DNA of 64,000 nucleotides from Seison nebaliae. Lineage: Eukaryota; Rotifera; Pararotatoria; Seisonacea; Seisonidae. The notes below the pieces were generated by a model. The model made no database searches. It saw only the letters and a program-made list of their open reading frames with translations, and was not told where the DNA came from. Both the position numbers and the translations under genes were made by a program. The stretch covers positions 49,035 to 113,034 of the forward strand of contig JALJEE010000027.1 of the NCBI GenBank assembly GCA_023231475.1. Direction: 5' to 3'. Positions 147 to 61,277 of the stretch are shown here, one piece after another (positions within the stretch are counted from its first letter, which is position 1; each line of letters opens with the position of its first letter).

Positions 147-1444
147 ATGCAGTCAACTCTAATTAAAAGTGAATGTCTCCCACAATTGAATGATAATAGC
201 ACGAACGATAACAATCATTTATCAATCGATCAAAATGAGAAACGAACTAATCGAAGAAAACCCAATGTTACCAGACGATTTCAAGGTGTCAATGACAAGC
301 GAATGGAATTGACCACTCCCGAATTATTAAATACTCAATTCGCCAATGATCAACATGATGTAAATATCCACCAGAATGATGACGACGAAGCTGTCGCCGA
401 TTTAAATCAAGAGACGATCAATAACAATCATCAATCCACAACCATCATCGAACCGAGAAGAGATAGTGTTGCCTCCACCTTATCGGATAAAAGTAGTGGA
501 TGTATTTCAAATGGAAGTCGATTTAGCGAAGACGATATTTGTGCAGCGAAACAAAATTTAAATCAGCCATCTCATATGAAAAATGAACATTTAGAAGATC
601 CGGAAATATTATCCAGCATTCTTCACCGATTACTCGGCAACAACAATTCCAGTCTTGCCGACGTATTGCAAAATAAAATTATGTTAAAAATTCATGAAAA
701 TGAAAGAAATACTCCTTCGCCACCTACCACCTCACCACCAAATACTCATGAAGTAAAAGAAATAAAGAAAGAATTGGAAACTTATCCCAAATTGGCAGCT
801 ATGTTATCAGGCGATTCACCCAAATCTTTACCGAGAAATTACAATTCCACCAATCCACCATCTCGTGCCTCTCCCCCAAGAGGACGGTCACGAATTGGTA
901 GTGATGATTTGAAAAATCAGACAATTGCTGAATTATTAGGTAATCGACGTCGTTCCCTCATAAGAAGTGTGGAAAAAGAAGGATTATCGAAAATTAATGT
1001 AAATGAAGTTCTCTCTTCTACTGGAACAACCGTGGGAACTGTTCGAAAATCGACGAAAAGAAATGCTCCTGTCAAATCTCTCACGGCCAATAAACAATTA
1101 AGAATGGATCGGTTTGTAAAATTTGAAATTTTAAAAAAAAATAATTTTAAAAAAATAAATTTTTTAGTTCGTCCGACACTCCATGTGACAGTGGTAGTGG
1201 AAGTGGTAGTGGTGGAGAATCATCGAAAAAAACAACTATGGACGGTGTTGATTTAGCATATTTGGAACGAAGAAGAAAAAATAATGATGCGGCGAAACGT
1301 TCGAGAGATTTACGACGACAAAAAGAAGATGAAATTGCGTTACGCGCTGCGTTTTTAGAACAAGAGAATTTGGAATTACGAGCAAAAGTTGAATTGTTGA
1401 GAAGTGAATTGAACAATCTTCACGTCATTCTATCGATGAGATAA
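147..1444 (+). CDS. PAR-type bZIP transcription factor (CES-2/ATF-2/HLF-like)
   Basis: A nuclear DNA-binding factor expected to dimerise through its C-terminal zipper. Two exons (147-1111 and 1168-1444) join in frame across a 56-nt intron with a GTTTGT donor and a TTTTTAG acceptor, giving 413 aa. The bZIP fills the last ~60 residues: the basic region contains [17 protein letters not shown], followed by leucine-zipper heptads. The KNNxAAKRSRD signature is typical of the PAR/HLF/CES-2 group. The first 340 residues are low-complexity Asn/Ser/Thr-rich sequence with one hydrophobic helix-like patch near residues 150-175. A Gly-Ser tract (GSGSGSGG) links it to the basic region. Without the splice the first exon would end in junk and the second would lack a start, so the join is well supported. 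The family is clear; which paralogue it is, is not. Confidence 0.88.
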
Positions 1445-4400
1445 CAACCCGATGAAGAAACAGTCACTGAATATATTTCACACAACAACAAGAATGTGAT
1501 TAAATTATCGAATTTGAGTTTATATCAAAAAATTATCTTGTCAACTCTTTCTTTTATTTGTGATTAAATAAGAATAATTGTCATAAGAATTTTTTTTTGA
1601 AAAAAAAGTAAGTTTTATTCGAACTTCAATCACTCAACCTTCAACAAAATTTCTCTTCCGATTGTTGTCATTTGAAAACTTCCATGTGAGTCTATGAAGA
1701 GATAAAAATCTCCCTCAGATCTTTTCACACTTAACTTAATTCGTATCGGAGTCACTTTTTATATCTTTTATTCCAATCCTTTCTTTCTCATTAATATCTC
1801 ATATTTTCGTATTCATCCGAACTAACATCTCGAATTCATTCCCGCCAATAGTCAATGTCCGGTCTAAATTTTCCCTCAGAAATCACATTCTTTTTTTTGT
1901 TAAAACCGAAAGATTTTTTTTTTTTTGATTCTTAAAACTCGAAATTTCTCTTTTGACTAATTTCATCAATTTCCAACTCTCAAATTATTTTGTCGCATTT
2001 TATTGACCGTTATTTAAACAAATAATAATGAACCATTCAATTCTTCTAACTTGTCTCTCTCTCAACAGCACGAAAGTAAAAATTGAAAGAAAATATATTT
2101 TTTAAAAATTTGAATTGATGCCAAAAAAAAATTGATTTCCTTTTTACATACTGTATAAACTTACTTACAAACATTAATGAGGGATATATAAAAAAATTGT
2201 GTACAGAGTTATCTGTTCACAGATAAATACGTTTCTTATATAAAACTAAAAAAAAAGTTTATTCGAATTGTGGAGAATGATTTGAATGATAGTTATTATT
2301 ATTTTGAAAAAAAATTTGTGTTTCCTATTGAAACGATCTGTTTTCTCCAAATCACTTTCTCTTATGTCTTCAAATAAATTCTCTTTTTTTTTCTTCTTGA
2401 TAGAAACAATTCAAATGAGTTTTCTAAAACGCCGTTGTCTGTCTATTTGTTTTACGTTGAATGTTTTGCTTATTTATTTTATCTCTCATTATTTTCTAGT
2501 TGTTCATTATTTATGTAATTCGTTATAAGTAACGATCTCCTTCTCAATCGAACTAAAAAATTTTACGAGAGAAAATATACAGATAAATTTCTTTCTGTTT
2601 TCAATTCACCATTCGAGAGAATTTCAAGATAGGACGTTGGAAAAAAATCTTTTTTTTTAATTTTCATTTATTCAACATTTATCATTATTAGAAGTTAGAA
2701 AAGTTGTGTAAATGAATTTTGTATTTTGAGGAGATAAATCAGAGGAATTATTCATGGGAGAGAATTGACCATCAAATATTTCTAAAATTTCCTGATCGAC
2801 TCGGTATCAGTGACGAGTAATAATTAGATGTTAGATGGACAAGTGTTGATGTGAAGTGGGTGAAGGGAGGAGGAGTGTAGGAGATAAATGCTTGAGATAA
2901 GTCAACTTCCAACAGCAGTGAGAGTGAACGTTAAAGTTTTCCGTTAAAAAAGATAAAAAGTAAATTTTTGTGACAAGACAAAAAATTATTCCCATTATTA
3001 GTTCTTCACATCCAATTGATAAGAAGAAAAAAATAATAATGATGAAAGTAATGAGTAATAAAGTTTCATGGGACGAATGAGAGAGCAATAGAGATGACAC
3101 GATTCATTCTAATTTGACAATTATTGTTGTTGTTGATATTATCGATGTTGTTTTTATATTAATTCGAAATGAGATTGAGGATGAAGAGAAAATAGATGCA
3201 GACCGTTAAAAATTGCGAAATGAAGTTTTGATGATCTGATGACGACATGAAGTTCGATAATATAACGTCTCTGATGAATAGATTGGATGAGAGATAGATG
3301 GATTGAATACAGACAAAATGGTTTGATATGTGAATCATGAAATCTCATTTTGATCCGTAAATATGATGAAATTTAAAGTTTAATTTTTTAAGTGGTACAA
3401 TTTATGAAGCGAATCCTAATTCATTTCAACAGTCTCACTCACATTCATTTACGTTCACAGTCATTAAATGAACTAGTAGATTTGACGAAAGAAATTTTAA
3501 TAATCATAATAAATGAAAAATAATCATATTCTACTTTTCGATGGACAAAAGCCATTAAAGAGAGCCCAGTTCATTTGCCTAATCCATTTTCTCATTATAT
3601 AATCCATATTAGGTTATCCGTTCTTCTTCAATTATTTCTCCTTTTCTTTTCTCCTCCATCTACGAAAATTTGAAAAAAAATTCATTTTATCATCACATTA
3701 TCCATATCCATTCTCAATCAATCCACAAGGAATGCGAAGAATTCATGCAAATTCTTTCAGGGAAGTATCATGTCCAATCCGATACATCTGTTTTCCTTTC
3801 TCATTAGAGACGAGTGTGGAGAAATAACTATAAAAATAGCCGATTGCATGCATGCATTTTTGAAGGGAGAATATGATAATTATATGGTTTCTCTCGTGCT
3901 TCCTCATTGGAATGACTCTTTCTCTCTCTCTCTCTCTCTTTCTTTCTTCCTCATTCAATTATTGTGTGTGATGGTGGAAATGAATGTTCTCGGAAACGCT
4001 ATCAAGTAGATTTGAAAGTTGTGGTTAACAAATGTCAAAATGGACAAATTAACGAGCTTTCTTTCTATGTCATCTCTCTTTGAAAATTCTTTTTGTTTTC
4101 ACATTCACGATAATTTTGAAGGGAGAGATGGGACGTTTTCTCTCTTCTCGTCAATGAGACTGCACTTGTTTTTGGACGATTCTTATTATATGAGCGCACG
4201 GTGTATAGATGGTTTTATTCGATCGTATGAAATGATGTGCGCATGTATATATATTTATATATTGAAATGGATTGATGTTATCGATTATAAAGGGAGAGAA
4301 ATAAGAGAGAGGGAACATATTGTGACATTGAATTTCCGATGTGACTACATTTATCCTTTGGTACATTGGATTGACCATTGTCCATCGATAATTAATTTTC

Positions 4401-4554: not shown

Positions 4555-7271
4555 ATGGCAACTTGTCATGTTTCAGGTGCTTCAATGTCTCTCACGCCCA
4601 AAATCAGACGATCGAGACTGTTCATGGAACCGTATCGTAGTTCGCTCACTTGTATAAAACAGGAACGATTCAACCGGTATTCATATCCATCCAAAATCCG
4701 GTTAGATGATACTTGGAAGAGATACATCAGAAATATTCCTCCCTGGAACAATGAAATGAATAAGGAGAACATGACACAACTCGATGTTTCTGTTAGTTGT
4801 CCAAATTAATTTTAATTATCATCTAAAAAAAATTTATTTAAAATAATTTCAAATATCATTTTAAAAAAAAGTGAATGGAAATTTAATTAAATTGAAATTA
4901 ATTATGTTCATAATTAATTTTTTGAAATGTTTCATAAAATTGGAAAATAGTTCTAGAAAAAAAAAAGAGAGAAAAGTTAATAAAACGAATTTGAGTTAAT
5001 GTTTCATGATAAAAAGAGGAAACTTTTAAAAGGAATTCAGACACATTTACTTTTCAATTCAAATTTTTGTTTTAACTTTCCTTTTTCTTTTACCAGGAAC
5101 ATCTAATCAATCGCTGCGAATTTATTTCTCATCATATTCACGTCTTGAAATATTTCGTACAAATCCACAAAACCATCGACCGTCATCTTATTCCTCGCGT
5201 CGAATTGACTGATTGTCAGAAGTGCACGATCGAAGAGTTTAATAGAGTTTATGCCGATATCAGTTTGTTGGAGAAGATGTGTCATCGAGCAACAGCGATG
5301 AATAGAATAAATGAAATAAGAAATCGTTTACAACGATTAACATTATCGATGCGTGGATTGGAAGAGCAATATTGTCATACGAGATTGATGGAAGATAAAA
5401 AAAATGAATTTCCACAAGAAGAATTGGGAGTCACTTTATTATCGATCGAAACATTAGAGAATCATATGGAGAAAGTATTCAAGAGATTATGTCATCTTTT
5501 TGAAATGTATGAGCGTGAATACGAGAATAAAATGGCGGATAAATCCGATAATTATGGAAATTATTCCGATTGTTATTCTGACGGCAAATTTGACGACACT
5601 TATACCGGAATGTCATCAATGATGGAGAGTTGTAAGATATCTGGTGATTCGGATAATTTGTTCGAGAATGATGGATACGGATCATCAGAATGCGATTTAT
5701 TAAAATCCGATTCAAATTATCTATTAAAATCACAATCTAATTATTTATTGAATGTTTATGATAATGAAGTGAATGGAAATTGTCTCTATAATGAATATGA
5801 TCGAACTCCAAAACGTCGTCAATTTATGTCGAATGGAATTCAAAATCATAATTGTAATAACAGTTGTAATAATCATGAAATGTTTAATAATTGTCTTCAT
5901 TCTAGTCACCATGCGAATCATATGACTGAATTCAATGGAACTCCATTGAAACATCGACTTAACACGAAAGAATTCATCGATAATAAATTGACATTTTGTG
6001 CCGTTCGAGATAATTATTTAAATAATTCGACCGATTGTCTCGACCATCAAGACGGTCATACTCATTTGGATGAATCGATTAACGTTTCTTCTCCTTTATC
6101 TCAATCCATCACTACCAATCGTCAAATGAGTCCATCGAGAGAATCGAAATTAAAACCGAAAATCTCACCAGCTTTATCGGTCAATTCTCAACAAACCGTT
6201 CATTCATCATCGTCGAATAATTCGGCATTGAGTAGTGTACAAAAGATTGTGGTTCAAGAGAATGGAATTACTCGTCTCACTAATTATACGCCACCACCAA
6301 ATATCAATATTAATCGATATAAAACGGAATTGTGTCGTCCGTTCGAGGAGAAAGGCGTTTGTCGTTACGGAACGAAATGTCAATTCGCTCATGGTAAACA
6401 TGAATTAAGAGATTTAGATAGACATCCCAAATATAAGACAGAACGATGTAAGACTTATCATACGAAAGGTTTCTGTCCATACGGACGACGTTGTCATTTT
6501 CTTCACGACGATTTGGGATCATCAACAGATTTGTTGTATGATCTCGAATTGACCAGTTCGAGTGAAAATAATTTATTGAATATGAATACAAATACCAACA
6601 ACAACAGTAGTTCAACAAGTAACGGCAGTTCTGGAAATGAAGAAATGGAAACGAGCAACAAAATCGATGGAAAAAGTGAGGAAAAAAAAACCGTTCTAAA
6701 AACCGTTTTAAATTCCTTCATTTCAAATTCACCATCGACCGTCTCGTCGAGACGTAATAGTGTTTCGACAAATGGTAATAAATGTCAAAAGGAGAAAGAC
6801 AACATTTCTGATTATCATACGGCTGATTATCTTCTCGAACAATTAGTGGCGATTCGAGACGAGAGTAAAGTTCGTGAATCGAGTAACGACTCCGTTGAAA
6901 TGGAACGAGACGATCTTATGGAAGCGAATAATAAAGTCCAAAATCAGATTCGTTCGATTGAAGAGGAAATTAATTTGTCTTTAAATTTATTGACGGAAGG
7001 TGTTAAAGGTGATGTTTGTGAACATGAAAATAATTCAAATAATAACGAGAAAATGGAGAGGGAATTATCAGACGATAATGAACATAACAAGGAAAATGAG
7101 TTGAGAGTAAAACCGAGTATTCAACTGAATGGCGAATATTTGTCTTCTCCACAAATCAGTCAAACGATCAATAAGAAGTGCAAGAATAATGGGACTAATG
7201 AAAAGAAAGTTGTAGAGAGTCCACGAACTGAGAATACTTATTCTTCTATTCTTCGACGTTCCTTAATCTGA
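4555..7271 (+). CDS. Tristetraprolin-like tandem CCCH zinc-finger protein (long form)
   Basis: Probable AU-rich-element-binding mRNA decay factor. Exons 4555-4791 and 5097-7271 join in phase 0 (donor GTTAGT, acceptor TTACCAG), giving about 803 aa from the first in-frame ATG. Two fingers sit near residues 488-550, each with C-x8-C-x5-C-x3-H spacing and the family lead-in YKTELC or YKTERC. The inter-finger linker has the canonical TTP length. Vertebrate TTP family members are only 320-500 aa. Here about 480 residues precede the fingers, including a helical, coiled-coil-like stretch around residues 80-210, and about 250 acidic, Asn/Ser-rich residues follow. The protein ends SSILRRSLI, loosely recalling the short basic C-terminal motif of TTP proteins (inference only). 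The RNA-binding family is certain; targets are not visible. Confidence 0.88.
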
Positions 7272-14107: not shown

Positions 14108-17100
14108 AATTAACGATGATGAATGAGATATTTCATTATTTTCATTATCATTTCCTGTTAATTTAGATAAACTGTCAAAAACGGAGAATCTGGACGAGAA
14201 AGTTTTGGACAGTTCCTCATTCTTCCGACTCAATTTATCCAGAACTGAACTAGTTCGATTCATAGAGAATTGTTCACTCTTATTCCTCAACATCTTCAGC
14301 GGGGAATTTTGTTGTGATGAATTTTCATTTTCCATTTTCTTCGTTCCTTCTTCGATCATATTACGGATACCGGAAAGGAAGTTTGCACCATCATCTAATT
14401 CATATGTTTTGGAAGAAGTTTCTTTATTTTCTAGAGACAATTTTTCATATTTATTCGTCATTTTCTCTTTGGGCAAATTTGATTTTCCATCTTTCATTGA
14501 TATCAATGACGTTGGTTTCCTGCTTGAAAATAAAATATTTTTAGCAATGACTTCTCAAATTTTATTTTATAAAACAAAATTTTAACTTCTCTTCAGATTT
14601 GAATAAATTCACTTTTTCCAAATTTTCATTATCTCCTTTCACGATATTTGGTAGAATGTTTGTTTGTTTCGTATTATTATTTGAACGGAAATTTGTCGTC
14701 ATTGTTATTCCACCAACAGTAGTAGTAGTAGGAGGAGCGATACTAGTGATGGTGGTAGAGATAGTGGCAATTGTGGTAGTGGTGATGGTAGTGGGAGTAG
14801 TAAATTGAGTTGTAGACGAACTAGTGGAGATATTTGAGAATAGATTTCCCAATAAACTTTTTCGTCCATCATCTGATTTTTCTTCCTTCTCAAATTTCTT
14901 CTCACTTTTGTCAGTTTTCTCTAAAAATACAAATAAATAATAACGGATTAATTTCACTAAATTATAGAAATTTAAAATTTTATTTTCAATTAATTTATAA
15001 AATAATAAATTTTTTTCAAATTTTCATTTGAAGAATTTTCAATTAAATTACAGTTTTTCCATCTCGATCTCGATAGATGGTAGTCGGATCGATACCATAT
15101 CTCCTCATAGCTAATTTCCTAGTTTTCTTACTATGAAATCGTTTTCTCTTCTTCTTCTTCTTCTTCTTCCGTTGACTACCCGGTATATCTTCACCATAAC
15201 TCAAATCTGAATCGAATTCGGGTCCGTCATATTCTTCCTCTGATGATCCGTTTAATTTCTTCAAAATTCGATGTCTACATCTCAACAATTGAACATGAAT
15301 CGATTCGAGACATACATATAATTTACCACCACACACATTCTCCACAAATTTATTGTTAATGGACAAACCGGAATATTTCCTTTTCGATTGTGGAACGGGC
15401 GACCCCGTTGAAGCATTTTCGTGCATGGCAAATGATTTTAATTTATCTAACATCTTTTCATCTCGTTCACTTTCACTTTTCGGACTTTCCATTACATCAT
15501 CATCATCATATCTTTGACCAGTACTTCGAATTTCCGATGATCTATCTGATAAATCTTCCAATTTCGGATCGTCAATAATATCTTCTAAATGACATGTCTT
15601 TGCAACGACGATCGATGAATTATGAAGTTTCGACAACTTTTTCACATCCAAATTCCCTAGAACTCGCATTTTCTCGTCATTAGAAAATTCGAGAATTTGT
15701 TTCACACTCAATTTCCCATTCGATTTCCTTCCGAATGATGACGATAATGAAATATCATAATCATTTTCACCATCACGACGGACAGCAGCGATGGCATTTT
15801 TGAAAAGATTCCATTTCGCTCCATTATATCGAAATGTATTTCTCTTATGAGTTTCACCAATTTCTGAGAAACTTACATCGATAATTGATGTGGGACTATC
15901 TTCGATGACAACTTTCTTCGTTTTCAATTGACTGGAACATTCACAATATTTCTGCGAATGACAAACGGATTCACTTCGACTTTTAATATAAACCGTAAAT
16001 CGTTGGAGTGTGGTTGGAGCGGTGAAGGAACTGTAACATCGTCGAACTATTTTATTCGGTTGGTCACGTTTCCATTTTCTTACTTTTTTTAAACTCTGTC
16101 GCATTAAACGTTTCTCATATTTCTTCCGATGTTCCTCCTCCAATTTCTTCATTTTCTTTTTCATTCTCTTCTTTTTCTTTATTCGTTTCCCTTCTACTGA
16201 ACTATTCTCTTCTATCTCAACATCACTCTTCTTTTCTTCTTCTTCTTCTTCTTCTTCTTTTTCTTTTATTTCCTCAATATTCGTCTTGTTCGTTTCTTCG
16301 CCAGTGAAAAGACTACTAAATAATTGAATTGGAGCATTGATCATATTAGTGAAATAATCAGTCACATTCGTTATTAAATCTCCATTCTGATCATTATTCG
16401 CTTCTATATCATCTTCAGTTTCTTCTTCTTCTTCTTCCTCTACTTTTTTTCCTTTGTTTTTTAAACTTTTCCTTTTCTGATCTTCTGCACTAAATCGAAG
16501 ATATTTTTTCTTCAATTGTTCATATTCCTCTCGAACTCTCTCACTGTCGCCCAAATCATTCGTAGGAATTTCTTTCTCAATAATCTTCTCACTATCATCC
16601 GATGAAGCAATGTCTGAATTAACGATATCCATTTCATCTTTCTCCGATTTGGGAGTGGTGAACATATCCAATATGGGGAAAGCATTCGATCGAAGTTTCT
16701 TATTCAAATCTCGAACTTTTACTCTCGATTGTGGTCCCGCATCGAAACTATCCGATGAACTATCATCCAATTCATCATCAGCATCAACATCAGTTTTATT
16801 AATTGATTTTTGACTTATTTTCGATCTGATATCTTCATCATAATTTATTATTTTTTCGTTACCATCATCATGGTTTTCATTTTCGACATTTTCCAATTCA
16901 TTCTCTCCAACTATTTCACTTTCTTTATCATTTTCTGTTTTCGAAGAAGATCGTTCGTCCACATATGCCACTTCAATTCCCACACTCTCATCATTATCAT
17001 CCTCATCTTCTGATGATGAGACTTGAATAGTTTTGATGATTTTATTTTTGAAATTTTTCAATTTTTTATTCTTCAACAAATTTGCCGATAAGGCACTTTT

Positions 17101-31325: not shown

Positions 31326-32740
31326 ATGCAATATTTTAATTCGCCAGAACAAATATCACCAGAACCGCGATCTGATGGTGTTGCTCCAATTCGTTATAAT
31401 GTTAAATGGCCCGTTCTTTCTGACTTCCAATTAATTAGTTCATTGGGAGTTGGATCATTTGGAACCGTATATCGTGCCGTTCATCATGGATCGAAGAGAC
31501 ATGTCGCTCTCAAAATTTTAGAAAAAGAAAAAATGATAAGAGTTAAACAACAGGTATAACATTTTTCATTTATATTCACTAATCGAACAATATTAATCGT
31601 AATAAAAAGAGAAATATGAAATGTATTGGAATTTTTTAAAATTTATTTTTCCTTATTCATTAGGAACATGTTCTTCACGAAAAACGCATTTTGGCAGCAA
31701 TCAGCAAAATTGATTCTTTTCCCTTCATCGGTCGCTTATTAGCGTGGTGGAAGGATACGGCAAATTTGTATATGGCTATGGAATTGATAAAAGGAGGAGA
31801 AATGTTTACACATCTACGTCATCATCGAACTTATACAGAGATTGAAGCAAAATTCTATTCAGCTCAAATTGTACTTATTTTTGAATTTCTTCATCATTTA
31901 AAAGTTTTTTTTTTCATTCTTTTTCTTTTAACTTCATTCAATTACCATTAGATTGTATATCGTGATTTGAAACCAGAGAATATTTTATTCGATCATCGAA
32001 CCGGTTATATAAAACTTGTCGATTTCGGTTTCGCCAAAATTGTTAAGGATTATACTTGGTATAAATTAATTTTAATTTTAATTAATAATCCTTCTTATTA
32101 TTATAAATCATAAAAATAGGACATTATGTGGTACGCCCGATTATTTAGCACCAGAAGTTATTCATAGTCGACGATATAATAAAGCGGTGGATTGGTGGGC
32201 ATTAGGTGTGCTCATATATGAAATGTGTGCTGGAATACCACCATTTTATGCTGATACTACAATTGGTGTTTATGAAAAGATTATTAAAGGTGTCGAACGA
32301 TTCCCTCCCTCATTCTCATCCGAATTACGCGATCTCCTTCAAGGTCTATTACAGGTCGATGTAACTAGGTTAATTTGATAGAAAATTAAAATTTTTTTAA
32401 TTCTCTTTTTTCCATAGACGATTAGGCAACATGAAATATGGAACGAAAGATGTGAAAAATCGTTCTTGGTTTCGTTGTGTGAACTGGGTGAAATTATTCC
32501 AACAAAAAGTTCATTTTTTTTTTGAAAGTTATTTAATGAAATTATTTCGAAAAGATTGTAGCGCCTTATATACCTGAATATCATGGAATTTATCGTATGC
32601 AACCAAATAGTTCTCAACCGAAAATCGAACGGATAACATTCGAAGAACACGAGAAAGATCTATCGATAGTAGACGATCATTCCATTAAAATTACTCATAG
32701 TAATTCCAATTTGTTTTCTGCTGATTTCGAAGCATTTTAA
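31326..32740 (+). CDS. PKA catalytic-subunit-like Ser/Thr kinase (AGC family)
   Basis: Six exons (about 31326-31553, 31664-31903, 31952-32058, 32120-32368, 32418-32508, 32555-32740) join in frame, giving about 366 aa. Motifs in order: Gly loop [12 protein letters not shown]-equivalent VALKIL, PGGEMF-equivalent [10 protein letters not shown], catalytic YRDLKPEN, metal-binding DFGFAK, activation segment [14 protein letters not shown] retaining the PDK1-site Thr, [14 protein letters not shown], and [13 protein letters not shown]. It ends exactly at a C-terminal F-x-x-F (FEAF), as PKA does (FTEF). It differs from canonical PKA in the N-terminus, in the DHRTGYIKL insertion before DFG, and in a tail poor in the usual acidic residues, so it could be PRKX-like or a divergent PKA. 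The frame is closed by a stop just upstream; translation starts at 31326 or enters by splicing at 31299. Confidence 0.85.
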
Positions 32741-33195: not shown

Positions 33196-34683
33196 ATGGC
33201 GAAAGGTGGTGCAAACCAACCGGGAAAGAAGCAACAAGAAAAACAGAAGACAAAAATTATTGAAGTTTTTCTTCATCAAAAAAACGATTAAAAATTAATT
33301 TTAAGAATTGAATGAAATTAGGATAAAACTTTCGGTCTGAAGAATAAGAAGGGAACAAAAACACAGAAATATATTCAACACGTTCAACATCAAGTACAAA
33401 ATGCAGGTAAAACTGGTCGTGAAGTTTTCAATTGTATAATTTGTGTAAATTTTTCAAAATTTCTCATTTATAAAAGATCCAAAAAGAGAAAGATGCGAAA
33501 TTGAATAAAAATAAATTGACGGATGAAATCAAACCACTTTTCACTCCTGTTATTGATCAACCGAAAACGGTGATTGATCCAAAATCCATTCTTTGTGTCT
33601 TCTTCAAACAAGGACTATGTACGAAAGGAGCTAAATGTAAATTCTCTCACAATATCGAAAAACCAAAGAAAGCGATCGAGAAGAAAGATTTGTATAAAGA
33701 TGATCGTTTTGATGACGGTTTGATTCCATTTGATAATTCCATTCTATTATTCTATTAATAACGCTAATAATAAAGATGAAGAAGATATGAAAGAATGGTC
33801 AGCTGATGATTTGGAGAAAGCGATCGAACAGAAACATGGCGCTCATAACAAGAGAATTAATCAAACAAATATCGTTTAATTTAAAAATTTGAATTAAATT
33901 CAAATTTAATTAAAATTTTAGGTGTGTAAATATTTCTTGGAAGCTGTGGAAAATCGTACATATGGATGGCGATGGGAATGTCCAAATACGAATGCCAAAT
34001 GCATTTATCGTCATGCACTTCCACCTGGTTTCGTTCTGAAACGAGATCAGAAAGTAGTGAAGAAAGATGAGATTTCTTTGGAAGAATTAATCGAGAAAGA
34101 CGTTTTTCTTCTTTAAATTTTCCATTTAAATATATTTTTATTTTTAGCGTGCTGCATTAGGTGACGACGTAACAAAAATTACATTGGAATCATTCTTAGC
34201 ATGGAAAAAGAAGAAAGTTAAAATGTCTCGACAGAAAAAAAATGAAATTTTATGAAAAAAAATTTTTTTTTAGTTGAAAGAAAAGAAATTGAATTTGAAG
34301 AAAGAATTGGAAACTAAACAAAAAAATTTCAAACAAGGAAAAACTAAAGGAGTTAAAAATTATTTAACTTATATCCATTTAATTTTCATAATTCATTCGA
34401 ATTTTAACAGTTAACTGGTCGAGACATGTTCACTTTCGATCCCGAATTAGCCAAACATCAATTAGGTATTGATGATGATGCGGAATTGGTGACGATGGTG
34501 AAAGAAGAGACAATGGAAGAGCAAGAGTTAACTAATAATGCTCAAGATGTAACATCAGCATTCATCGGTTAGAGAATTAGTTTTTTAAATTCTTTTTTCT
34601 AATTATTCGATAGATGAAACACTTTTTTTCGATTCGGAAACGTTGGCCGATGTGGAGAAACATTTGGATTTGATCACGTAAAT
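33196..34683 (+). CDS. ZC3H15: Zinc finger CCCH protein 15 (DRG-family regulatory protein 1)
   Basis: Cytoplasmic partner that stabilises the translational GTPase DRG1. Nine short exons can be joined in frame, starting at 33196-33264, 33322-33406 and 33487-33717, and ending at TAA 34681-34683. Homology is continuous: [15 protein letters not shown], a first CCCH finger in [19 protein letters not shown], a second starting [16 protein letters not shown] and ending [16 protein letters not shown], then [34 protein letters not shown] and [12 protein letters not shown]. These blocks follow the order of the human protein. The protein is somewhat shorter than human ZC3H15 and its C-terminal acidic tail is abbreviated. 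Most of the donors are GTT. The acceptor of exon 3 (CCAAAAAG) is purine-rich and the least certain. Confidence 0.88.
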
Positions 34684-35035: not shown

Positions 35036-37398
35036 TCACAAATCCGTATCATGCCAATTGGATTTGTATTGTTCATTCATAATCTGACTATTTCCACTAT
35101 CATAAGAACCGATTGACTGTTGTTGTTGTTGTTGTTGATATGGTGGCATCATTCCATTATTACTATCGGATGATCGATGATCTTCATCTAAATAAGAAAA
35201 ATAAATTTTTATGAAATAAATTTTTGTAAATAAAACAACTAACATCCATTATTTAACATTGCTACTGGTTGTGGTTGTTGTTGTTGTTGTGGTGGTGGTG
35301 GAGGAATTGGTTGTTGATTGTCTTGTTGTTGAGAAAGATCAGTTCCCACATGAGAATCAATACGACGTAATGCACCAGCTGCATAAGTAGCGAGTATGGT
35401 ATCAGGAACGCCGATCAGATCTCTTAATAATTGAGTGCCACCCATATCATTGATTTCATGAGCAGCACGTTCTTCTTTCGAGAGAGTACAAAGAATACCC
35501 ACAGCAGAACGTTGAGCGAATCTCATAGTTGGTGGCCATTGAACAATTTGAATCATAAATTGAACACAATTCTTATCGAGTAAAGCCAATTTTTTATGTT
35601 TGTCCATACACAAATAAATGAGTGCACATAATGTCGCTTCTAATACTTGTTCATATCGAACCCCATCAAATAAAGGAGCATCGGGATGATTTGGACCACC
35701 AAACTCCACAATCTTATTGAAAGAATGAAGTGCAATATCATATAACTTCTCCGTACCATCATAATCTCGTATGATGGTTCTAGTTGAGGCATCTTGTGAC
35801 AAATTACGAACTAAACCGATTGTCGCTTTCATTAATGGGAGAGATGTATGATTTTCAATAATCGACATTAATGGTCGTATTCCATTTTCAGCACGAATGA
35901 TATCGATGGCTGTGGCGAATGATGTGGTACGAAAAGTGAGATGTCTCAAACAACAAACGGTCGGCTCTAAAATCTCTTGACGTAAATTGGCGATTTGTAA
36001 CAAGTGAACTAATCGTTCTACTCCACCTTGTTTTATAACAGTTTCTTTATTCATTCGATTATTACAAGTCAAATTTGAAAGTATTCCAGTAATACATGTT
36101 CTCATATTCAAATCATTTCGATCTAATTTCTCGATTAATTCTCCAATACATTCATCCATATTCGTCACGACATTTGCCAAATCCGAAATATTTCTTAACG
36201 CCCATAACGAATGTTGGAGTAGTCTAGCATCGACATATTCCGGTCGAATGATTTTCGTCACACGAAATGGAAATTGTCCATCAATTAAACATTGTTTCAC
36301 TTCCTTTTGTACACTCAATGTTCGTACTAATTTCATTCCACAAATCACTAATTTCTCATAAGCACAATCGAAAACTATATCGAGAATTGGCGTCAATAAA
36401 TTCTTCTTAATAAAATACAATTTATATTGTGGCTCTTCAAAACAAAGAGCATTCAATGTATCGAATAAAATAGCGAGAAATTTATAATTTTTCTCTTTCA
36501 ATTTCCGTTCCAATAACGTACATAATCGTTCGACGGCGGAACATCGTTTCATTTCGTCTTTCGAATTCGATAAATATATCAGAATATTATGAAGTGACGT
36601 CAATGCATAATTGACGATGTAATCGTCATTTACTGACAATAATGCGACGAGTGCTCGAATTCCGTTAAATTTGAAAATGAAACTTTTAAATTCTTCTTTT
36701 CCACACATATAATTGACACTTGGTAAACATAATTTTACCGTTTCCAAATCATTCGAAGCAACATTTTTCATTATCGCTTCTGCCATTTCACTATCACGAA
36801 TGATAACTCGTCGACAAACATCTTTCTTACAAATATCGTTGACGATTCTCAATGCTTTCTTTCTCACTACTTCGTCACTATCTTTCGATAATCGTACGAG
36901 ATCTGGTAAGGCGTCAATCGCTCGATTAACTTCCTCATGATAATTCACCATATTATTCACCGCTTCATTCAATTCCGATGCTGGTTTTGCCAATTTTTCC
37001 ACATTCGATTTTCCTTGACCATTCTTCTCATTCGATTCATTCATATCTGATTCGTCTTTCACTTCCGCACCAAACATCGCCGCTTTCACTCTCGTCGCAC
37101 TTTCTTCTTCATTTGCGATTCCGATACGATGATTTAGAGATGTTCCCGTTTTCTCTGATCGAAGTGATGGATCGGCTGTATTATAGCCAGAATTAATTCC
37201 ACTATCCAATATCCATTGATCGTGCATCCACATGACGGTATTACCTTTTCCGTTTACTCCTGGTGCCGTTCCGGTGCCAGTCTGTGGAGGTAATTCGTTC
37301 GTATTATTATTATTATTATTATTATTATTAGTTGGAATTGGCATCGGAGCTGTCATTGTACCGCCATTGGAATAACTGTTATTATTCATCTCCCACAT
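35036..37398 (-). CDS. Beta-catenin / Armadillo
   Basis: Adherens-junction linker and Wnt co-activator. Exons 37398-35244 and 35187-35036 join in frame (donor GTTAGT, acceptor TTTAG), giving 768 aa against 781 in human. The degron is LDSGINSGYNTADPSL: S66, S70, T74 and S78 reproduce the exact spacing of human S33/S37/T41/S45 (GSK3/CK1 and beta-TrCP site). AVNNMVNYHEEVNRA at the start of the repeats matches the alpha-catenin-binding helix. About 12 Armadillo repeats follow (residues ~150-690). The groove lysines corresponding to human K312 (in YKFLAI) and K435 (in NLTCNNRMNKET) are kept. The C-terminus is Gln/Pro-rich and ends WHDTDL, equivalent to the PDZ ligand WFDTDL of human. The repeats are divergent, but every functional hallmark is present. 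A poly-Asn tract lies near the N-terminus. Confidence 0.94.
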
Positions 37399-47038: not shown

Positions 47039-48450
47039 CTGATTTCTCTCATGAAATATTTTATTTCATCAAGCTGAACTTTCAATTATTCTTCTAATTC
47101 AAATTCATTCCAAACTAATTCAACAATTTTTAAATTATCAGAAGTTCCCAATTTATAAGGTTCATTTATAGTATTTTTAATTTGGAAGAGAAAATTTGGA
47201 ATTCGCTTCTCAACCACATCATTTTTTAGAAGATATTTATTATTGGAAGTTTTCTAAAAATTTTCAAGTATTTTTCTTTGACAAACAATTTTGAAAATTT
47301 TTATGGCATTAAAATCACCTTCCGTAAAGTTCTCTCCTAAAAATCGAACGAGGAACAATTGAAATTCTTATGAAATTTTTCTAGTAAATTACGAATTTTT
47401 TATATGTTCTTATAATTACGAATTGGAAGACTTCTTAAACAAAATTTTAATTTATTCGTATTAAAATGGATCGATGAGAAATGTAGAATAATTAGAGAAA
47501 CGATAAATGAAATGAGAAATTGATGTTAAAAAAGATTCTATTGCAACAATGATTGGAACAATTATTAGTTTAATGATTAGAAGTACGATGGCGCCATCCA
47601 CATGAAATGGAACGATAAAATAAAGGAAGAAATTAATCGAATATGATATTTCATTTTAACATATTATGGTAATTATAATTATGGTATTGATTAATAGTCA
47701 TCGTGTGTAGTTATATGAAGATAGTTTTGATAAATAGGAGACCATAAATATACGAAGTAACAAGATATAAATGATTATTCGTTCAACAGTTGTCAATTTT
47801 CCGAATCATTTCATATAACTAATAATTTTTCTTAAGTAAAACGGTAAATGTATTTAAGATGATATGAGTCTTGTATGATAAGAATAAGATGATTTATACG
47901 TAATCAACAAATAAATATTATGTAGAAGAGACATCATGATCAGACGATATATCAGATATATCGAACGATTTTTAAATTGGTCTCTATGTGTAATATGTAT
48001 GTATGTGAAAGTGTATGTGAAGGTATATGTGAAGTTTAAGGATTTAATGCTAAATGTTTGAAAGACGCATGTTTTCAATTATCGAATGAGTGCGAGTGAG
48101 AATTGTTGGGAATTGTTTAGGTTCAATGCACTTTATAAGATTCAAACTTGGAAGCCAAATTGATCATTCAATTCTCCAATTATTTTTCTACTTTCATTTT
48201 ATTCTCTACAAATATTGCGTAAAAATTTATGTGTATATGTTTGTAGTATAAGAATAATAAGGGTGTAGTTAAGAGAATGATAGAGATTGGATGAAAATTC
48301 TTTTTTTTTAATGTCATTTTTTTTCGTTGAATGAATATTTCAAATATCATTCAAACAATTATTATTCTGACATATAATATCAATTATAATTCAAATAATT
48401 ATTATAGAATATCATTCCAAATAGATTTTTTTTATTAGGAAAAATTAGAA
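47039..48450. other. Divergent promoter interval between MED4 and the first SAM synthetase
   Basis: 1.4 kb of A/T-rich DNA with no supported gene. A strong acceptor-like TTTTTTTTATTAG lies at about 48426-48438, 12 nt before the ATG of the SAM synthetase. It implies a 5'-UTR intron or a trans-splice site. Confidence 0.5.
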
Positions 48451-49659
48451 ATGACAAAATCAAACCATTTGATTCATCACGAAATCACTTCGCTGAAAGA
48501 ATTATCAGCTGATGGTGATTCTTTTCTGTTCACATCAGAGAGTGTTGGAGAAGGACATGCTGACAAAGTTTGCGATCAAGTCAGTGACGCCATTTTAGAC
48601 GCTCATCTTACTCAAGATCCGAATGCGAAAGTGGCATGTGAATGTGTTTCCAAAACGGGAATGATTATGGTTTTTGGAGAAATCTCATCGAAAGCAATTG
48701 TAAATTATCAGAAGATCGTACGAGATGTGGTGAAGAAAATCGGATACGATGATTGTAAAAAAGGTTTCGATTATAAGACATGTAACGTCTTACAAGCGAT
48801 CGAAGAACAGGCGTCGGAAATAGCGGAAGCCGTTCATTTGAATAAAGAGGAAGAAGATTTAGGTGCTGGAGATCAAGGAATTATGTTCGGTTATGCTACA
48901 GATGAAACGGATGAATGTATGCCATTAACATTGATTTTAGCTCATCGTTTAAATAAACAATTAGCCGATTGTCGACGAAATGGAACTTTGCCATGGGCTC
49001 GACCCGATTCCAAAACTCAAGTAACCATCGATTACCGTTTTGATGGTGGGGCGTGTGTCCCACAACGTATTCATACCATCGTCATATCATCACAACATTC
49101 AGCAGAAGTGACTTTGGAGCAAGTACGAATCGGTTTGATGGAACATGTCATCAAACCAATCATTCCTCCACATCTACTCACTGAAGATACCATTTACCAT
49201 TTGAACGCCTCGGGAACTTTCGTAGTTGGAGGACCGATGGGTGATGCCGGTTTAACAGGACGAAAAATTATCGTCGATAGTTACGGTGGTTGGGGTGCTC
49301 ATGGTGGCGGTGCATTTTCAGGAAAAGATTATTCCAAAGTTGACAGATCTGGAGCTTATGCTGCTCGTTGGGTAGCGAAGTCGTTGGTGAAAGCCGGTTT
49401 GTGTCGTCGTGTACTTGTACAAATTTCTTATGCCATCGGTATCAGTGAACCATTATCTATTACCGTTTTCTCATACGGAACGTCGGAAAAAACGGAAGCG
49501 GAATTATTAGATATTGTCATCAATAATTTCGATTTGAGACCTGGAAAAATTGTTCAGGAATTAAAATTGAAGAAACCGATCTATCAAGACACAGCATGTT
49601 ATGGTCATTTTGGGCGCGAAGAATTTACTTGGGAACAACCGAAACCGTTGAAATTTTGA
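48451..49659 (+). CDS. S-adenosylmethionine synthetase, copy A
   Basis: Makes S-adenosylmethionine from methionine and ATP in the cytosol. Intronless, 402 aa (human MAT2A 395). Family motifs: [46 protein letters not shown], the P-loop-like [16 protein letters not shown], and C-terminal [19 protein letters not shown]. It differs at normally invariant positions: the N-terminal active-site motif GHPDK reads GHADK, and [11 protein letters not shown] reads [11 protein letters not shown]. It has about 14 more N-terminal residues than copy B. It is a tandem duplicate of the next gene, 0.8 kb away. Confidence 0.96.
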
Positions 49660-50488
49660 ATTAGACCATCACAAATAGATAAAAAAGGAAATTAATGACG
49701 CTAACATTTTTGTCGATCTCTCGGTCGAACATTATTGGTTCGGCTGCCCAAAATTCATTTTTCATTCACTCATCCACTTCCTACTTTCCTTTTTCATACT
49801 TATTGCCTCTTACTAAGGATTTATAGAAATGGCTTAAGTTCAGTTTTCCTATTCGTTTTCGTGTATAAATCAAGTTTGGGTGCTGAATATACGATGATCG
49901 GATTTCTTTAGACTTTTTTTTTCACAAATTTTAATTTGAATATTTTTCTATCTTAATTCTCTCTCTCTCTCTCTCTCTTCTCAATTCAATATTTACGTTA
50001 TGGAATATAACATCCGTTGAGATGGATATGAGTGAAGATGGAAAAAATTTCAAATTTGAAATTAATGATCTTTTTTAATATTTTATTAACGATCCATCGT
50101 ATATTCTTCGAATTTTCGACTTTGCATTAATTTCCTATTACAGCTTTTTTTCATGTCTATTTCTACTCTTTCCATTAAATAAAAATTTGATTATAGACCC
50201 AAGAAATGAAATGTTTATCTAAAACTTTTTGAAAAATGAGAAATCTTTAAAAATTGACATTTTTTGGTGACGTTGGTCAAATGAGGTTGAGTGAGTGTCT
50301 AATTGACGACTGGAAAAGTTCTTGTGAACTTTGTCCATCGTACCATCACGATCACGAATCGTTACATGTCCATCGAATGAATCGCGTTGTAGATTTGAAG
50401 GATTGTTGTATTAAACTGACATAATTTCGAAAGTTCCTCATAAATATTTGAAGAGTTGTTATACATAAATTATCTTTCATAATTGACA
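49660..50488. other. Gap between tandem SAM synthetases
   Basis: About 830 bp carrying the 3' UTR of copy A and the promoter of copy B. A CT microsatellite lies at about 49961-49980. No gene or third fragment of the duplicated unit is visible. Confidence 0.5.
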
Positions 50489-51649
50489 ATGGAGACTTAT
50501 GATGGAGAATCATTTCTTTTTACTTCGGAGAGTGTGGGAGAAGGACATCCTGATAAGATTTGTGATCAAGTAAGTGATGCTGTACTCGATGCACATTTGG
50601 CAGTGGATCCACATGCCAAAGTGGCATGTGAAGCTGCAGCCATGACGGGAATGATTTTTGTATTTGGTGAGATTTCTTCCAACGCCACAATCGATTATCA
50701 GAAAGTTATTCGGGAGACTATTCGCGATATCGGTTATGATTCGAGTGAGAAAGGATTCGATTATAAAACTTGTAATGTCCTTCAAGCGATCGAGGAACAA
50801 GCTGTAGAAATTGCAGACGCTGTTCATAAAAATCGTGCTCAAGAAGATTTAGGTGCTGGTGATCAAGGAATCATGTTCGGTTATGCTTCAGATGAAACGG
50901 AAGAATGTATGCCATTGTCATTAGTTTTGGCTCATCAGTTGAATAAGAAATTGGCCGATTGTCGACGTGATGGAACGTTATCATGGGCATTACCAGACTC
51001 GAAAACTCAAGTAACTGTCGAATGTAAAATCGAAAATGGTGCCGTCATTCCCATTCGTGTACATACTATTGTCATTTCCAGTCAACATAAATCGAATGTG
51101 ACAGTGGATCAAATTCGTGACGATTTAATGAATATCGTTATTAAAGATGTGATTCCAGCGAAATATTTGAATGAAGAAACGAAATATCATTTGAATCCGT
51201 CAGGTTCCTTCATTTTTGGTGGGCCACTTGGAGATGCAGGATTGACAGGAAGGAAGATTATTGTCGATACTTATGGTGGATGGGGAGCTCATGGTGGTGG
51301 TGCATTTTCAGGAAAGGATTATTCGAAAGTTGATCGATCGGCAGCTTATGCTGCTCGATGGGTAGCGAAGTCGTTGGTGAAGAGTGGTCTTTGTCGTCGT
51401 GTTCTCGTACAATTGTCTTATGCGATCGGAATAAGTGAACCGATATCAATTGCGGTTTTCACTTATGGTACGTCGACGATGAAGGAGAAAGAATTGGTGA
51501 GAATTGTTAAAGAGAATTTCGATTTGAGACCGGGGAAAATTGTGGAGGCATTAAATTTAACTCAACCGATTTATAAAAAAACCGCTTGTTATGGTCATTT
51601 TGGTAGAGAAGACTTTTCATGGGAACAATGTAAAGAATTAAAATTCTAA
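50489..51649 (+). CDS. S-adenosylmethionine synthetase, copy B
   Basis: Intronless, 386 aa from the first ATG (METYDGE). It keeps the canonical GHPDK and [11 protein letters not shown] motifs that copy A has lost, plus [16 protein letters not shown] and [16 protein letters not shown]. It carries its own departures: KTGM of other enzymes reads MTGM, and the R-P-D-S-K-T-Q block reads L-P-D-S-K-T-Q. Both the D and K of that block, which contact ATP in solved enzymes, are present. The two copies are clearly diverged (roughly three quarters identical by eye), so the duplication is not recent. Confidence 0.96.
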
Positions 51650-52301: not shown

Positions 52302-54492
52302 TTATCGTTTCTTCAGAAATAATCTGAAAGCCAATACCAATAATCCAACGAGATGAAGGCCAATACCCAATGCGGCGAGTATAGTAAAATCTTTCCATTT
52401 TTTTACCTGCAATATATGAATGATGACAATATAATATGACGAATAAAATACAAACATCATCCATACTCAGAGAATGTAGTACTTGTTCCCCGGTATGAAA
52501 GCAAGTGGTTGTGTTAGCAGGACATGGAATGGTTTTTATATTTTCCCATTGATTCGTACAAATTAAATCATAACCATATTTGAACCAGGACACATATTTT
52601 ATCCAAATAAAATAAATAGGAGTCGATGAATTGTTTAAAAATAATCCTCCGAATAACATTAGCGGAATAGTCATGGGGGCTGACAAGGCCAATGCAACTT
52701 CAATACTCGATGCCAAACATGAGATGAACATTCCAAATCCAGACGCTGAAATTGCAACCAGATTTGTGATAATAACAAATAAACCAAACGCCCGTCCACT
52801 ACTATAAAAGCCAACTGTCCAATAAATAATAGTGGCAAATATTGTGGTGATTATGGCGGTTAATACCATCTAAAAATATCGTCGATTAGTTAGAACAAAT
52901 TATTTCAATAAACATTGACAATTGCTTTCGTGGTGAAGAATGGAATTATTCCATAAACTTTCTTTCTTCTCTCTCTCATGAATAAAGGAATTTGTCCAGT
53001 TATTGTCTGAAAAATTAAAAGATAAATGAAACTTATAAAATTTTACTAAACATTTACAACAGCGAACATACTGGAAAATGAGAGATTTGTTAAAACGACG
53101 AAAGAGATCCCATTGAAATTTTGAATTCCCGTTTGGTTGATAGTCAATTGGAAGAAGATGAATCCCAATAATAAACCGATAAACTATTTTTTTAAGAAAA
53201 TTTTAAAATTATTAAGAAATTATTAAAGAAGGCAAACAGCTGCTTGCATAATTCTCATTCTCAACGCAAATGGTTGACGAATTAATTCGAAGAAACTTCT
53301 CCAAAGTAGCCAGCCCAATTCCTTTCCCATCGACGATTTCTTCCGATTAATCCTGCGAAGTTCAACCGAATTCGATGTGAGATCTTTCGTATTAGCTATA
53401 TCTGCTTTCAATTCCATCATTCGTTGCGAATTATCATATTTTTCAAAAGCAACATCAATGTCTGTTATGCACTTTTGTTCTTGTCCGGGTTTCAACGCAA
53501 ATTCTTCTAAAAGGAATTCGGCCGGATTATAACTAATCGGACATTCTTTTCCATATGTCTCACTAAAGAAAGGGATTGCTGCATTGGCATTACCAAAATA
53601 AACACATCGACCATTCGCCAGTAACATCAGTTGATCGAACATTTGGAAAATCGCACTTGACGGTTGATGAATTGTGCAAACAATTGTCATTCCTCTACGA
53701 GCCAACAGTAACAATGATTTGACAACGGTACTCGCTAAGAATGAATCAAGACCAGAAGTCGGTTCGTCGCAAAAAAGGATTGACGGGTCAGATAACAATT
53801 CGGTGGCTAATGACAATCTTTTCATTTCCCCACCAGAAATTCCTTTTATTGTTCGATTTCCAATTAATGTGTTTTGACATAAAGTTAATCCTAACTAGAA
53901 ATATGATTATTAAATGATGAAACCATTTTTTTTTAAATTACAAACATCAGCTATTAATTCTTCGACATATTCTAATTGATCAATTCTCGAAACTAATTGA
54001 TCAAGACGTAATGCGCTATGAAAACGAAGATGTTCTCTTACGGTCAATTCTCCCACAAACATGTCATCCTGTTCCACATAAGACGAATATTTCCCCATCA
54101 TTTTTTGAGTTGCAGTCAAACAGTTTAGTCTGATATTTCCAATTCGAACTAGATCACTACTATTTCTCAAATTCAAAGTGTTTAACAAAGTCGTTTTTCC
54201 ACTTCCACTACAAATAAATTTTTAAATTATAAAAAGAAAAAGAAAATTTTTTAATAAATTGGAACCTCGCACCCAAAATGGCCAACATTTGACCACTTTT
54301 TACACAACCAGAAACGTTCGATAAAATCTGTTTAGATGGAACGATTTTCCTGCACAAACTCTTTTTACTCTTCGTTTTAACACCCAAATTCTCCCATGTT
54401 AACGAGACATTTCTTTCCTGGTGCCAAGTTCCTTGAGATGCGAACGTCTTAAACGGTGACGATTCCGGACTACCAATTAGATTTTCATCCAT
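52302..54492 (-). CDS. ABCG-family half-transporter (White/ABCG2 type)
   Basis: Membrane exporter, probably of lipids or small metabolites, working as a dimer. Seven exons (54492-54266, 54207-53946, 53894-53238, 53183-53058, 53006-52914, 52869-52456, 52406-52302) all join in frame, giving 627 aa. The nucleotide-binding domain comes first, as in all ABCG proteins: Walker A GASGSGKTT is created by the first splice, then Q-loop YVEQDDMF, signature ISGGEMKRLS, Walker B ILFCDEPTSGLD and H-loop TIHQPSS. Membrane segments follow, starting FIGLLLGFIFFQ, then ITGQIPLFMRERRKKVYGI, VLTAIITTIFATIIYWTVGF, and a last helix LAALGIGLHLVGLLVLAFRL. The signature has GEMKR instead of GERKR, a mild change. The substrate cannot be told from sequence. 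Confidence 0.9.
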
Positions 54493-55893: not shown

Positions 55894-56333
55894 ATGGCAA
55901 CTAAATCTGCTGTAATTCAATCACTTTTAGCAAGCGTCGAACAACAACTATCGATATTGAACGGTTTTTTTTCATATTTCAATTTTATTATGACGGTTTT
56001 TGAAACAACTTTTTTTTGGAAGGTATTTCACGTCGTATTGAATTCGAAGGATTATTAAATCAAACTACAGATCCGAAATGTGAAGAATTAGATAATTCGA
56101 TATTTCTTGAAAAACAAAAATTATGTTATTTAGAAGCGGTACGAATTGGTTAGTATTTTCGACTTGATTTTTCATTTATAAATTTAAATATTATTCAAAT
56201 TTAAATTATCAAAATAAATTATGTAGCAAAACCGTTAATGGATAGTGGATTGAAAATGAAGAATGAGAAAAGTGAAGTGAAAAAATCAATTGGAAAAAAA
56301 CCGGCTGATATTCCATCCAATCAACAAAGCACT

Positions 56334-56370
<37 letters not shown>

Positions 56371-59702: not shown

Positions 59703-61277
59703 ATGCTATTAGGCATAGGAGAAACGGGACTTCAAAAACGAATTGAAATAGATAAAAATAATTTTAAGAATTTAAATCCGGATCATGAAAAATCGAGAAA
59801 ATGTATTCCAACCGCTTTCTGTTGGGAGAATGATGATGAAGTTTTTATTTTTGACAATATTCAATAATTAATTTTAATAGTTTTTAGTAGTTCAACGTGA
59901 TGGAAATGTGAGTCGTACTCGGATCGAATCAAACGAGAAAATGACAATTGAGACAATTTCTCAATTGGAATTGGTGTCGATCGATGAAGAGAAACCAATT
60001 CAATATATTGAGAATTCAATCGATTTAGAATTGACAAAAGTTTATGGGAAACATATAATTTTGTTAGATGTTCTTCCTTCCGGATATTTCACTTGTGATA
60101 TCGACCGCAATATCAGATATTATAATTCAAAAGTTAAATATAAATTTTTGAAATTTTTTAAAATTTTTTTAAATTAAAGTTTGAACTGATTTCATCAAAA
60201 GACGATCTTTCGATTTATAATGAGAAGATAATTGTGAAGGAATTAACATCGACAATTGTAAATCATCGATTAATTGGAAAATATAATCGAATTAATAAAG
60301 TTTTAGCAACTGGTGGATTTGAGTTTGAAATCGAATTATTTCAATTGAATGAAAATAATAATCAATTTTCATCAACTCCATTTTGGAGATCAAGAAATGT
60401 TAGAGAGTTTTTTTCAAATTGACAAATATCCCAAATTCCTTTAAGGTCTCTCATGATCATTTGAGTTTAAGAATACCAATATGGATAAGAGATATTGTAT
60501 TCTATCCTCAACTCTCACAAAATTCTTTATTCAAAAATGAGAAACATTCTAACGATTTAATTGTCTGTACAGCATATGGTCATGTTCGATATTATTCTCC
60601 AAAGACTTCAAAACGACAACCGTTATGGAAGTTCGATTATGAAGGAACTGCTCTCTCACATATCCGATTTCTACCAAATTCTAATAAGTTAATAAGAAAT
60701 TAAATTTAATTATTTTTCTTAATTAATTACTCTGAATTTCAATAAGCTTATTCGTTTGCTCTACAACAAATAATGATTTGTTATTGTTTGATATGAATCA
60801 ACGTCAGAAAAATGAGAAGGGATTATTAATTCGTGGTTATCGCGGCCATGCAGGATTGATAGAAGATATCCAATTTCTTTACGGAACTAAACGAGAAATT
60901 ATTTTAGGAAAGAAACCACTCAAAAGATCAATTCTTACGACGAGTACTGATGACTCGAGGGAAAAGATTCGCTATTCCTCCAAAAAGATTATGAGACAAT
61001 CAGATGAATTGATCGAAATAAATTTATCAGATTTATCTGATGACGAAAAAGAAGAAGAAAATAAGATTAAAATTATTGCTGATGAAAATGACGATGACGT
61101 AAAGAAACAATTATTCATCGTTACAGGAAGTTTAGATCGTTATATTCGAATTTATGAAATAGATGATTCATTTCCATTGAAACAAGTTCCATTTTTCATT
61201 AACATCTCCATGTGAATTTATTTTAGATATATGTGAAATCGAGAATGAAATTTCTCGGAACGACAATCAATCGATAA
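59703..61277 (+). CDS. WDR74: WDR74 / Nsa1 ribosome-biogenesis WD-repeat protein
   Basis: Nucleolar WD40 factor acting with NVL in pre-60S maturation. Six exons (59703-59840, 59881-60132, 60180-60398, 60446-60687, 60747-61185, 61227-61277) join in frame, giving 446 aa. The order of blocks follows the human protein: MLLGIGETGLQKRIEI, AFCWENDDE|FLVVQRDGNV, FWRSRN|VSHDHLSLRIPIW (human FRAKNVRNDWLDLRVPIW), CTAYGHVRYYSPKTSKRQPL, RGYRGHAGLIEDIQF, VTGSLDRYIRIYEI and a final KQ|IYVKSRMKFL. An acidic insertion of about 50 residues interrupts the last blade. All five introns are tiny (40-59 nt), and all five donors begin GTT. Confidence 0.9.

Follow-up and report, generated by a model that had tools for sequence, protein, structure and literature searches.

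A shift to T at intron position +3 and a probable matching base change in the U1 RNA of the rotifer Seison nebaliae

Our analysis of a stretch of 64,000 nucleotides (nt) from the genome of Seison nebaliae, an epizoic rotifer of the Seisonidea (contig JALJEE010000027.1, positions 49,035 to 113,034; hereafter the window), and of further sequence from the same assembly revealed 5' splice sites that mostly begin with GTT where GTRAGT would be expected, and U1 small nuclear RNA (snRNA) genes of which three out of the four found have A in place of U as the sixth nucleotide of their 5' arm. In the canonical register this nucleotide, a pseudouridine in the canonical RNA, faces intron position +3. We consider it very probable that A has replaced U at U1 nucleotide 6 together with a genome-wide co-evolution of +3, within an otherwise ordinary major spliceosome. 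The assembly comprises 36.03 Mb in 846 contigs.

The donor bias was measured first of all in alignments that carry no splice-site preference. The original prediction for the window had counted GTT at 33 of 38 joins (87%) without listing them one by one, and the intron set was rebuilt independently here. Five genes, chosen by us for their clear homologues among 14 multi-intron models (PKA, PITP, PheRS-alpha, Sec24 and ZC3H15, of which PKA and ZC3H15 lie in the window), were aligned to those homologues at equal cost for every GT..AG pair, with GT-AG ends assumed. These splice-neutral alignments placed GTT at 25 of 28 introns (89%, interval 73–96%); the base at +3 was T in 25, A in two and C in one, contrary to the purine-at-+3 rule of U2-type introns, and GTG was absent. 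Any GT is followed by T in 40% of cases across 303 kb of the genome, and T makes up 48% of intron bodies; the binomial probability of the observed count is about 1e-7 against the former background and 5.5e-6 against the latter. GTT was found at all five PITP and all five PheRS-alpha introns, at five of the six in Sec24 (the sixth being a GTC placement rivalled by a GTT 3 nt away), at all seven in ZC3H15 (41 of 42 placements over six homologues, the remaining one GTAAAT) and at three of the five in PKA, the other two being GTATAA. At 2 of the 21 junctions outside ZC3H15, one in PITP and one in PheRS, an alignment gap lies within four residues.

Public gene models agree with the alignments. In SNEBB_001831 (ZC3H15, eight introns) and SNEBB_001832 (one intron) all nine introns can be placed as GT-AG and all nine donors are GTT; among shifts of up to 12 nt, GTT...AG is the sole GT-AG placement that yields the two proteins. 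SNEBB_001832 is listed as a 'hypothetical protein', and the beta-catenin-like exon of the window is identical to it over the whole query. A gene finder with neutral donors hit eight of the nine introns exactly.

This gene finder, a generalized hidden Markov model trained on long open frames from the 303 kb, with donors limited to GT and then refined by expectation-maximization (EM), extends the count at the price of false calls. Its first version called 15 introns on one contig (C465; nine T, four A, one C and one G at +3), which were later rescored, and an earlier neutral pass gave T in 97 of 160 short introns, a low value because false calls dilute the signal. In the 303 kb, EM arrived at T in 190 of 205 introns from uniform donors and in 191 of 209 from a canonical GTRAGT start. 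When the +3 base of called introns was redrawn from the genome's own GTN frequencies, T appeared in 50 of 201 and 49 of 188 introns, and when it was redrawn as a purine, in 1 of 216, whereas the real sequence gave 186 of 208 under the same five rounds of EM. After three rounds the likelihood of the best decoy donor (-761003) was below that of GT (-760806). For the window, 45 introns were called after EM, 39 of them GTT; five calls (8783, 19970, 23454, 23910 and 24122) are antisense to long open frames and probably false, leaving 37 GTT donors among 40. EM overshoots, as is evident in PKA, where it chose an adjacent GTT at a junction for which homology needs CAG|GTATAA and skipped the exon with the DFG motif where the second GTATAA is needed. 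A filtered set of 81 out of 197 introns, EM-selected and hence tilted to GTT, contains 77 GTT donors, which is likewise an overshoot. Because of this overshoot our main figure rests on the splice-neutral alignments; 25 of 28 and the earlier 33 of 38 are the fair measures of the bias, and the latter came nearer to the truth than the EM values.

The filtered set serves to describe the rest of the intron. None of its 81 donors is GTAAGT or GTGAGT, and the three GTG donors in it are introns that lack homology support. G is enriched at +5 (28%, against 5% in intron bodies) and almost absent at +4, and +6 is uninformative. Position -3 of the acceptor is T in 56%, the median length is 56 nt, and A accounts for 36% of intron bodies. 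A search of the introns examined for a branch point yielded no clear CTAAC-like motif.

A search of the genome with the Rfam model RF00003, in which 41 of 293 candidates were scored, identified at least four U1 loci above the gathering score of 69.5 bits (L001 to L004). In descending order their scores are 112.9, 112.4, 108.0 and 97.4 bits; all four align over the full length of the model (positions 1–166), and base 6 could be read directly. L001, L003 and L004 start with AUACUAAC, which is complementary to GTTAGT, and L002 alone has the canonical start AUACUUAC; the sense 5' ends are ATACTAACCTGG in L001 and L003, ATACTAACTTGG in L004 and ATACTTACCTGG in L002. The canonical arm AUACUUACCUG is thus absent from three genes that are nonetheless U1 by the covariance model. 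The original prediction had proposed, alongside the GTT donors that our alignments, the public models and the redrawn-base controls confirm, a compensating change in U1, with ACUAAC facing GTTAGT as its example; ACUAAC is what three of the four genes carry, the other carrying ACUUAC. A pattern search for U1-like arms returned ten sites (the reversed control pattern returned 38): five were read, namely the four U1 genes and one other. That other one, an extra ACUAAC site with ACUAACUUGG on contig C629, was rejected as a U1 gene, as the arm is followed by no U1 sequence.

The three ACUAAC copies are alike at 11–12 of their first 12 nt and share 60–64% identity elsewhere, and this match at the 5' end of otherwise diverged copies suggests that their arm is under constraint. 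Over all four copies the first 12 nt agree at 10–12 positions, with 58–64% identity outside. In stem-loop 2 the ACUAAC copies have AUUGCAC, which we take to be the loop motif bound by U1A, and L002 has AGAGCAC. A downstream element, AATTAAACT, is common to L001, L003, L004 and a U5 gene (L006), the version at L002 being less similar; another element, TACAGTTCRCACTTTCT, lies about 60–80 nt upstream of both L004 and U5 and is shared at 16 of 18 nt, this pair giving the only convincing upstream match among the U1 copies compared. The two look like the 3' box and a promoter element of Seison snRNA genes. L001 and L002 lie on one contig (C208:6576-8439), some 1.5 kb from each other in tail-to-tail orientation, and the presence of both kinds of U1 there argues against the explanation that they come from the two reported strains of the species.

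The other components of the machinery appear ordinary. The single U6 locus found has the usual ACAGAGA box, and a compensating change in U6, which had also been considered, is thus unsupported. U5 carries the customary CGCCUUUUACU loop, and GUAGUA is present at each of three U2 loci found. A genome search for U12 snRNA gave no match, nor did control genomes; a spliced leader of the bdelloid type, sought as a pattern with up to three mismatches, was not found either, from which the absence of trans-splicing does not follow. The genome encodes a member of the METTL16 family (PF05971, 44.8 bits) as well as one of the SNRNP27 family. The U1-C protein (L031) is conserved, aligning without gaps to human U1-C through residue 57. 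Its zinc-finger stretch has K and N at the positions of human R28 and K29. The introns of this gene, joined by hand, start with GTTATA and GTTCGG; the neutral finder recovered the second donor and called the first intron as GTGGGA, which destroys the conserved start of U1-C. In LUC7 the same finder called GTTCAT, GTTATT and GTTGGC.

In conjunction, these observations lead us to the following model. The 5' splice site code of a U2-type, GT-AG spliceosome would have been re-specified at one position: with A for U at nucleotide 6, the arm of three out of four U1 genes reads AUACUAACCUGG or AUACUAACUUGG, and this A would form an A–U pair with the T that stands at +3 in about nine of ten introns examined, the remainder of the reaction proceeding through ordinary U6 and U5. 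Each GTT donor gains one Watson–Crick pair with the A6 arm relative to the canonical arm. Over the nine positions from -3 to +6 the mean number of pairs is 5.05 with the A6 arm and 4.11 with the canonical arm, as counted in the 81 filtered introns, which are EM-selected and lean to GTT; the +3 pair makes up a sizeable share of the helix because the donors have few other pairs. The ACUAAC genes would then be the expressed, major U1, and pairing of A6 with U at +3 may be what maintains the bias. From general knowledge of U1, the state is presumably derived from the usual one, in which U at nucleotide 6 faces a purine at +3. We infer from sequence that the donor shift was brought about by the change in U1. 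The gene with the canonical end may have survived as a relic, or may serve the minority of GTA donors as an additional U1.

Several points weigh against this model. Introns were sought in 303 kb of 36 Mb, less than 1% of the genome, and further U1 copies could exist among the candidates beyond the 41 of 293 scored. Decoy donors (GA, GC, CT, TT and GG) still yield 117–184 introns, so that many ab initio calls must be false. The GTA exceptions, seen in the two GTATAA introns of PKA, are real, and L002 with its canonical end scores 112.4 bits, level with the best variant at 112.9. Finally, U1 pairing is weak overall, since +4 and +6 are near composition, and other factors may matter. The suggestion that U1 is used in a relaxed manner, raised in the original prediction, is partly right: the low information at +4 and +6 speaks for it and the excess of G at +5 against it.

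What is the role of the canonical-ended gene? It is conceivable, though we hold it to be the less likely course, that two U1 RNAs divide the labour, the ACUAAC form serving GTT introns and a retained ACUUAC form a small GTA class. Both ends occur on one contig, and for the one among the two GTATAA introns of PKA that is preceded by CAG, contiguous pairing extends over six positions on the canonical arm and over five on the variant arm. The class would be small, however, with GTA in 2 of 28 homology-placed donors and neither GTAAGT nor GTGAGT in the filtered set, and the function of a U1 gene without the AUUGCAC loop is uncertain. Extended to its evolutionary form, in which the two would make an orthogonal pair, with ACUAAC having taken over nearly all GTT introns, ancestral ACUUAC dedicated to the GTA class, and the splice code switched through U1 duplication, either part-way or as a stable end point, the proposal has in our view the same limited probability.

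A GTT consensus that is real and not set by U1 is more doubtful still. The canonical gene would be the working U1 and the ACUAAC genes minor or silent, with T at +3 tolerated or favoured at the U6 stage or by proteins such as Prp8 and U1-C in an AT-rich genome. The score of the canonical gene, equal to that of the variants, and the low information at +4 and +6 would fit, as would an ordinary U6 side with METTL16 and SNRNP27 family genes in place; the review PMC11732430 holds that U6, not U1, commits the site. Recent work argues for attributing 5' splice-site shifts to U6 methylation and proteins over U1, and parts of PMC10581693 tie donor shifts at +4 to METTL16 and SNRNP27K. Against this stand the predicted compensating base in three diverged U1 copies and the fact that it is the canonical copy in which AUUGCAC is missing and the downstream element is less alike. 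Moreover, A constitutes 36% of filtered intron bodies and yet occupies +3 in 2 of 28 homology-placed donors; AT-richness alone therefore cannot explain the T. That the bias is an artefact of wrong joins we regard as extremely improbable, given that splice-neutral alignments, public models and redrawn-base controls all give GTT, even though T follows GT 40% of the time, the finder calls introns with decoy donors and EM overshoots.

The preferred model, a U1 base change matched by the donors, may be set beside known systems. The arm ACUUACC was invariant in every species for which a U1 was found, 227 of 230 yeasts and 9 of 10 outgroups, according to parts of PMC10581693. Seison shares with this canonical system GT-AG introns, the register of the arm and ordinary U6, U5 and U2, and differs in nucleotide 6, where three of the four U1 loci identified carry A, and in the T that mostly occupies +3. 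Experimental U1 suppressor mutations offer a parallel, since there too an altered donor regains pairing through a substitution in the arm; these experiments concern a single reporter, whereas the case of Seison is apparently natural and genome-wide. Early compensatory experiments with U1 are mentioned in a portion of PMC11732430. Human variant U1 (vU1) genes with altered 5' arms exist beside the canonical ones (PMC13172311, in part) and resemble the additional altered-arm genes of Seison, in which, unlike in human, the donor consensus itself has moved. Further animals and protists offer partial likenesses. In human, canonical U1 is the main form and donors are GTR. Among protists, Entamoeba introns start with GTTTGT, thus with T at +3, and to our knowledge no matching U1 change accompanies it. 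In Fritillaria borealis, another animal with a widely altered splice code, 95% of introns escape GT/AG, yet its two versions of U1 do not differ at the 5' end (sections of PMC13326754); Seison retains GT-AG and alters U1. The diplonemid S. specki, as described in part of PMC12621601, resembles Seison in that its genome combines a canonical with an altered U1 end, but in the diplonemid the conserved arm has given way to a run of C and complementarity to donors is comparable, not better, whereas in Seison one base matches the shift in consensus. The main text of the genome paper (PMC8351084) contains 'splic' once and 'donor' and 'snRNA' not at all, and thus no analysis of either. We found no printed account of this pairing of U1 and donors in the accessible portion of the open-licence PubMed Central literature, nor a precedent in the portions covered of the literature on Aculops, on diplomonads and parabasalids and on Giardia.

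Within the window, the best-documented introns are those of ZC3H15 on the forward strand. Introns 1–7 follow both SNEBB_001831 and the splice-neutral alignments to six homologues: 33265..33321 (GTTTTT); 33424..33476 (GTTTTC; one of the six homologues gave GTAAAT at 33445); 33718..33775 (GTTTGA; the donor agreed in all six, the acceptor lying at 33775 in three, 33781 in two and 33784 in one); 33874..33921 (GTTTAA); 34102..34147 (GTTTTT); 34217..34273 (GTTAAA); and 34352..34410 (GTTAAA). Intron 8 (34568..34613, GTTAGA) lies beyond the reach of the alignments and comes from the public model. The last intron of the beta-catenin-like gene, on the reverse strand at 35188..35243 (GTTAGT), is that of SNEBB_001832. 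In the gene for the PKA catalytic subunit (forward strand) splice-neutral alignment placed the exceptional introns at 31554..31663 (CAG|GTATAA, gapless against PKA-C) and 32059..32119 (TTG|GTATAA), and the others at 31904..31951 (GTTTTT), 32369..32417 (GTTAAT) and 32509..32554 (GTTCAT).

The remaining introns of the window come from the gene finder, which called the following with neutral donors too: in a bZIP gene at 1112..1167 (forward, GTTTGT), in a TTP-like (CCCH) gene at 4792..5096 (forward, GTTAGT), and in a RIM-like gene at 14523..14586 (reverse, GTTAAA), the name of which, as of the WDR74-like gene, is taken from the original prediction. A possible exceptional donor of the RIM-like gene, GTAATT at 14919..15051 (reverse), is a gene-finder call alone. 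ABCG, HMGCL and AIMP1 lie outside the splice-neutral set and were compared with solved structures. For the ABCG transporter (reverse strand) the finder called 53184..53237 (GTTTGC), 53895..53945 (GTTTGT) and 54208..54265 (GTTCCA) with neutral donors too; the joined protein is gapless at the second of these, in the second domain of the structure comparison, and at the third, which interrupts the ATP-binding motif GASGSGKTT. Those at 52407..52455 (GTTTGT), 52870..52913 (GTTTAT) and 53007..53051 (GTTTAG) appeared after EM only. On the forward strand, neutral donors also gave an intron in the HMGCL/AIMP1 region (55964..56022, GTTTTT), one in the AIMP1-like gene (56149..56226, GTTAGT), where the exon downstream of the intron matches AIMP1, and four in the WDR74-like gene, at 59841..59880 (GTTTTT), 60133..60179 (GTTAAA), 60407..60489 (GTTTTT) and 60688..60746 (GTTAAT); a fifth at 61186..61226 (GTTCCA) was called after EM only.

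A few further features were observed. An intron of PheRS-alpha (C465:2357-2410, donor GTTTAT) is 54 nt long, a multiple of three; the gene finder translated through it and homology exposed it. In the window, two adjacent long open frames on the forward strand (48439-49659 and 50483-51649) presumably encode S-adenosylmethionine synthetase, and short, imperfect AGTTCACAAAATAGCACAA-type repeats follow one another at 18180-18400. No Rfam match and no tRNA was found in the window.

What is the relevance of an altered donor consensus in this animal? The Seison genome may be wrongly annotated by gene finders whose donor model is fixed at GTRAGT. According to parts of PMC8351084, some 35% of the BUSCO set is missing in S. 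nebaliae; the figure for the transcriptome is similar, so that the main reason probably lies elsewhere than in the aberrant donors. The ACUUACC arm of U1 is usually held to be a fixed point of eukaryotic biology. If our model is true, U1 arm and donor consensus have changed at one base pair, as if nature had run a compensatory-mutation experiment across an entire genome, and Seison makes the share of U1 pairing in shaping splice sites directly testable.

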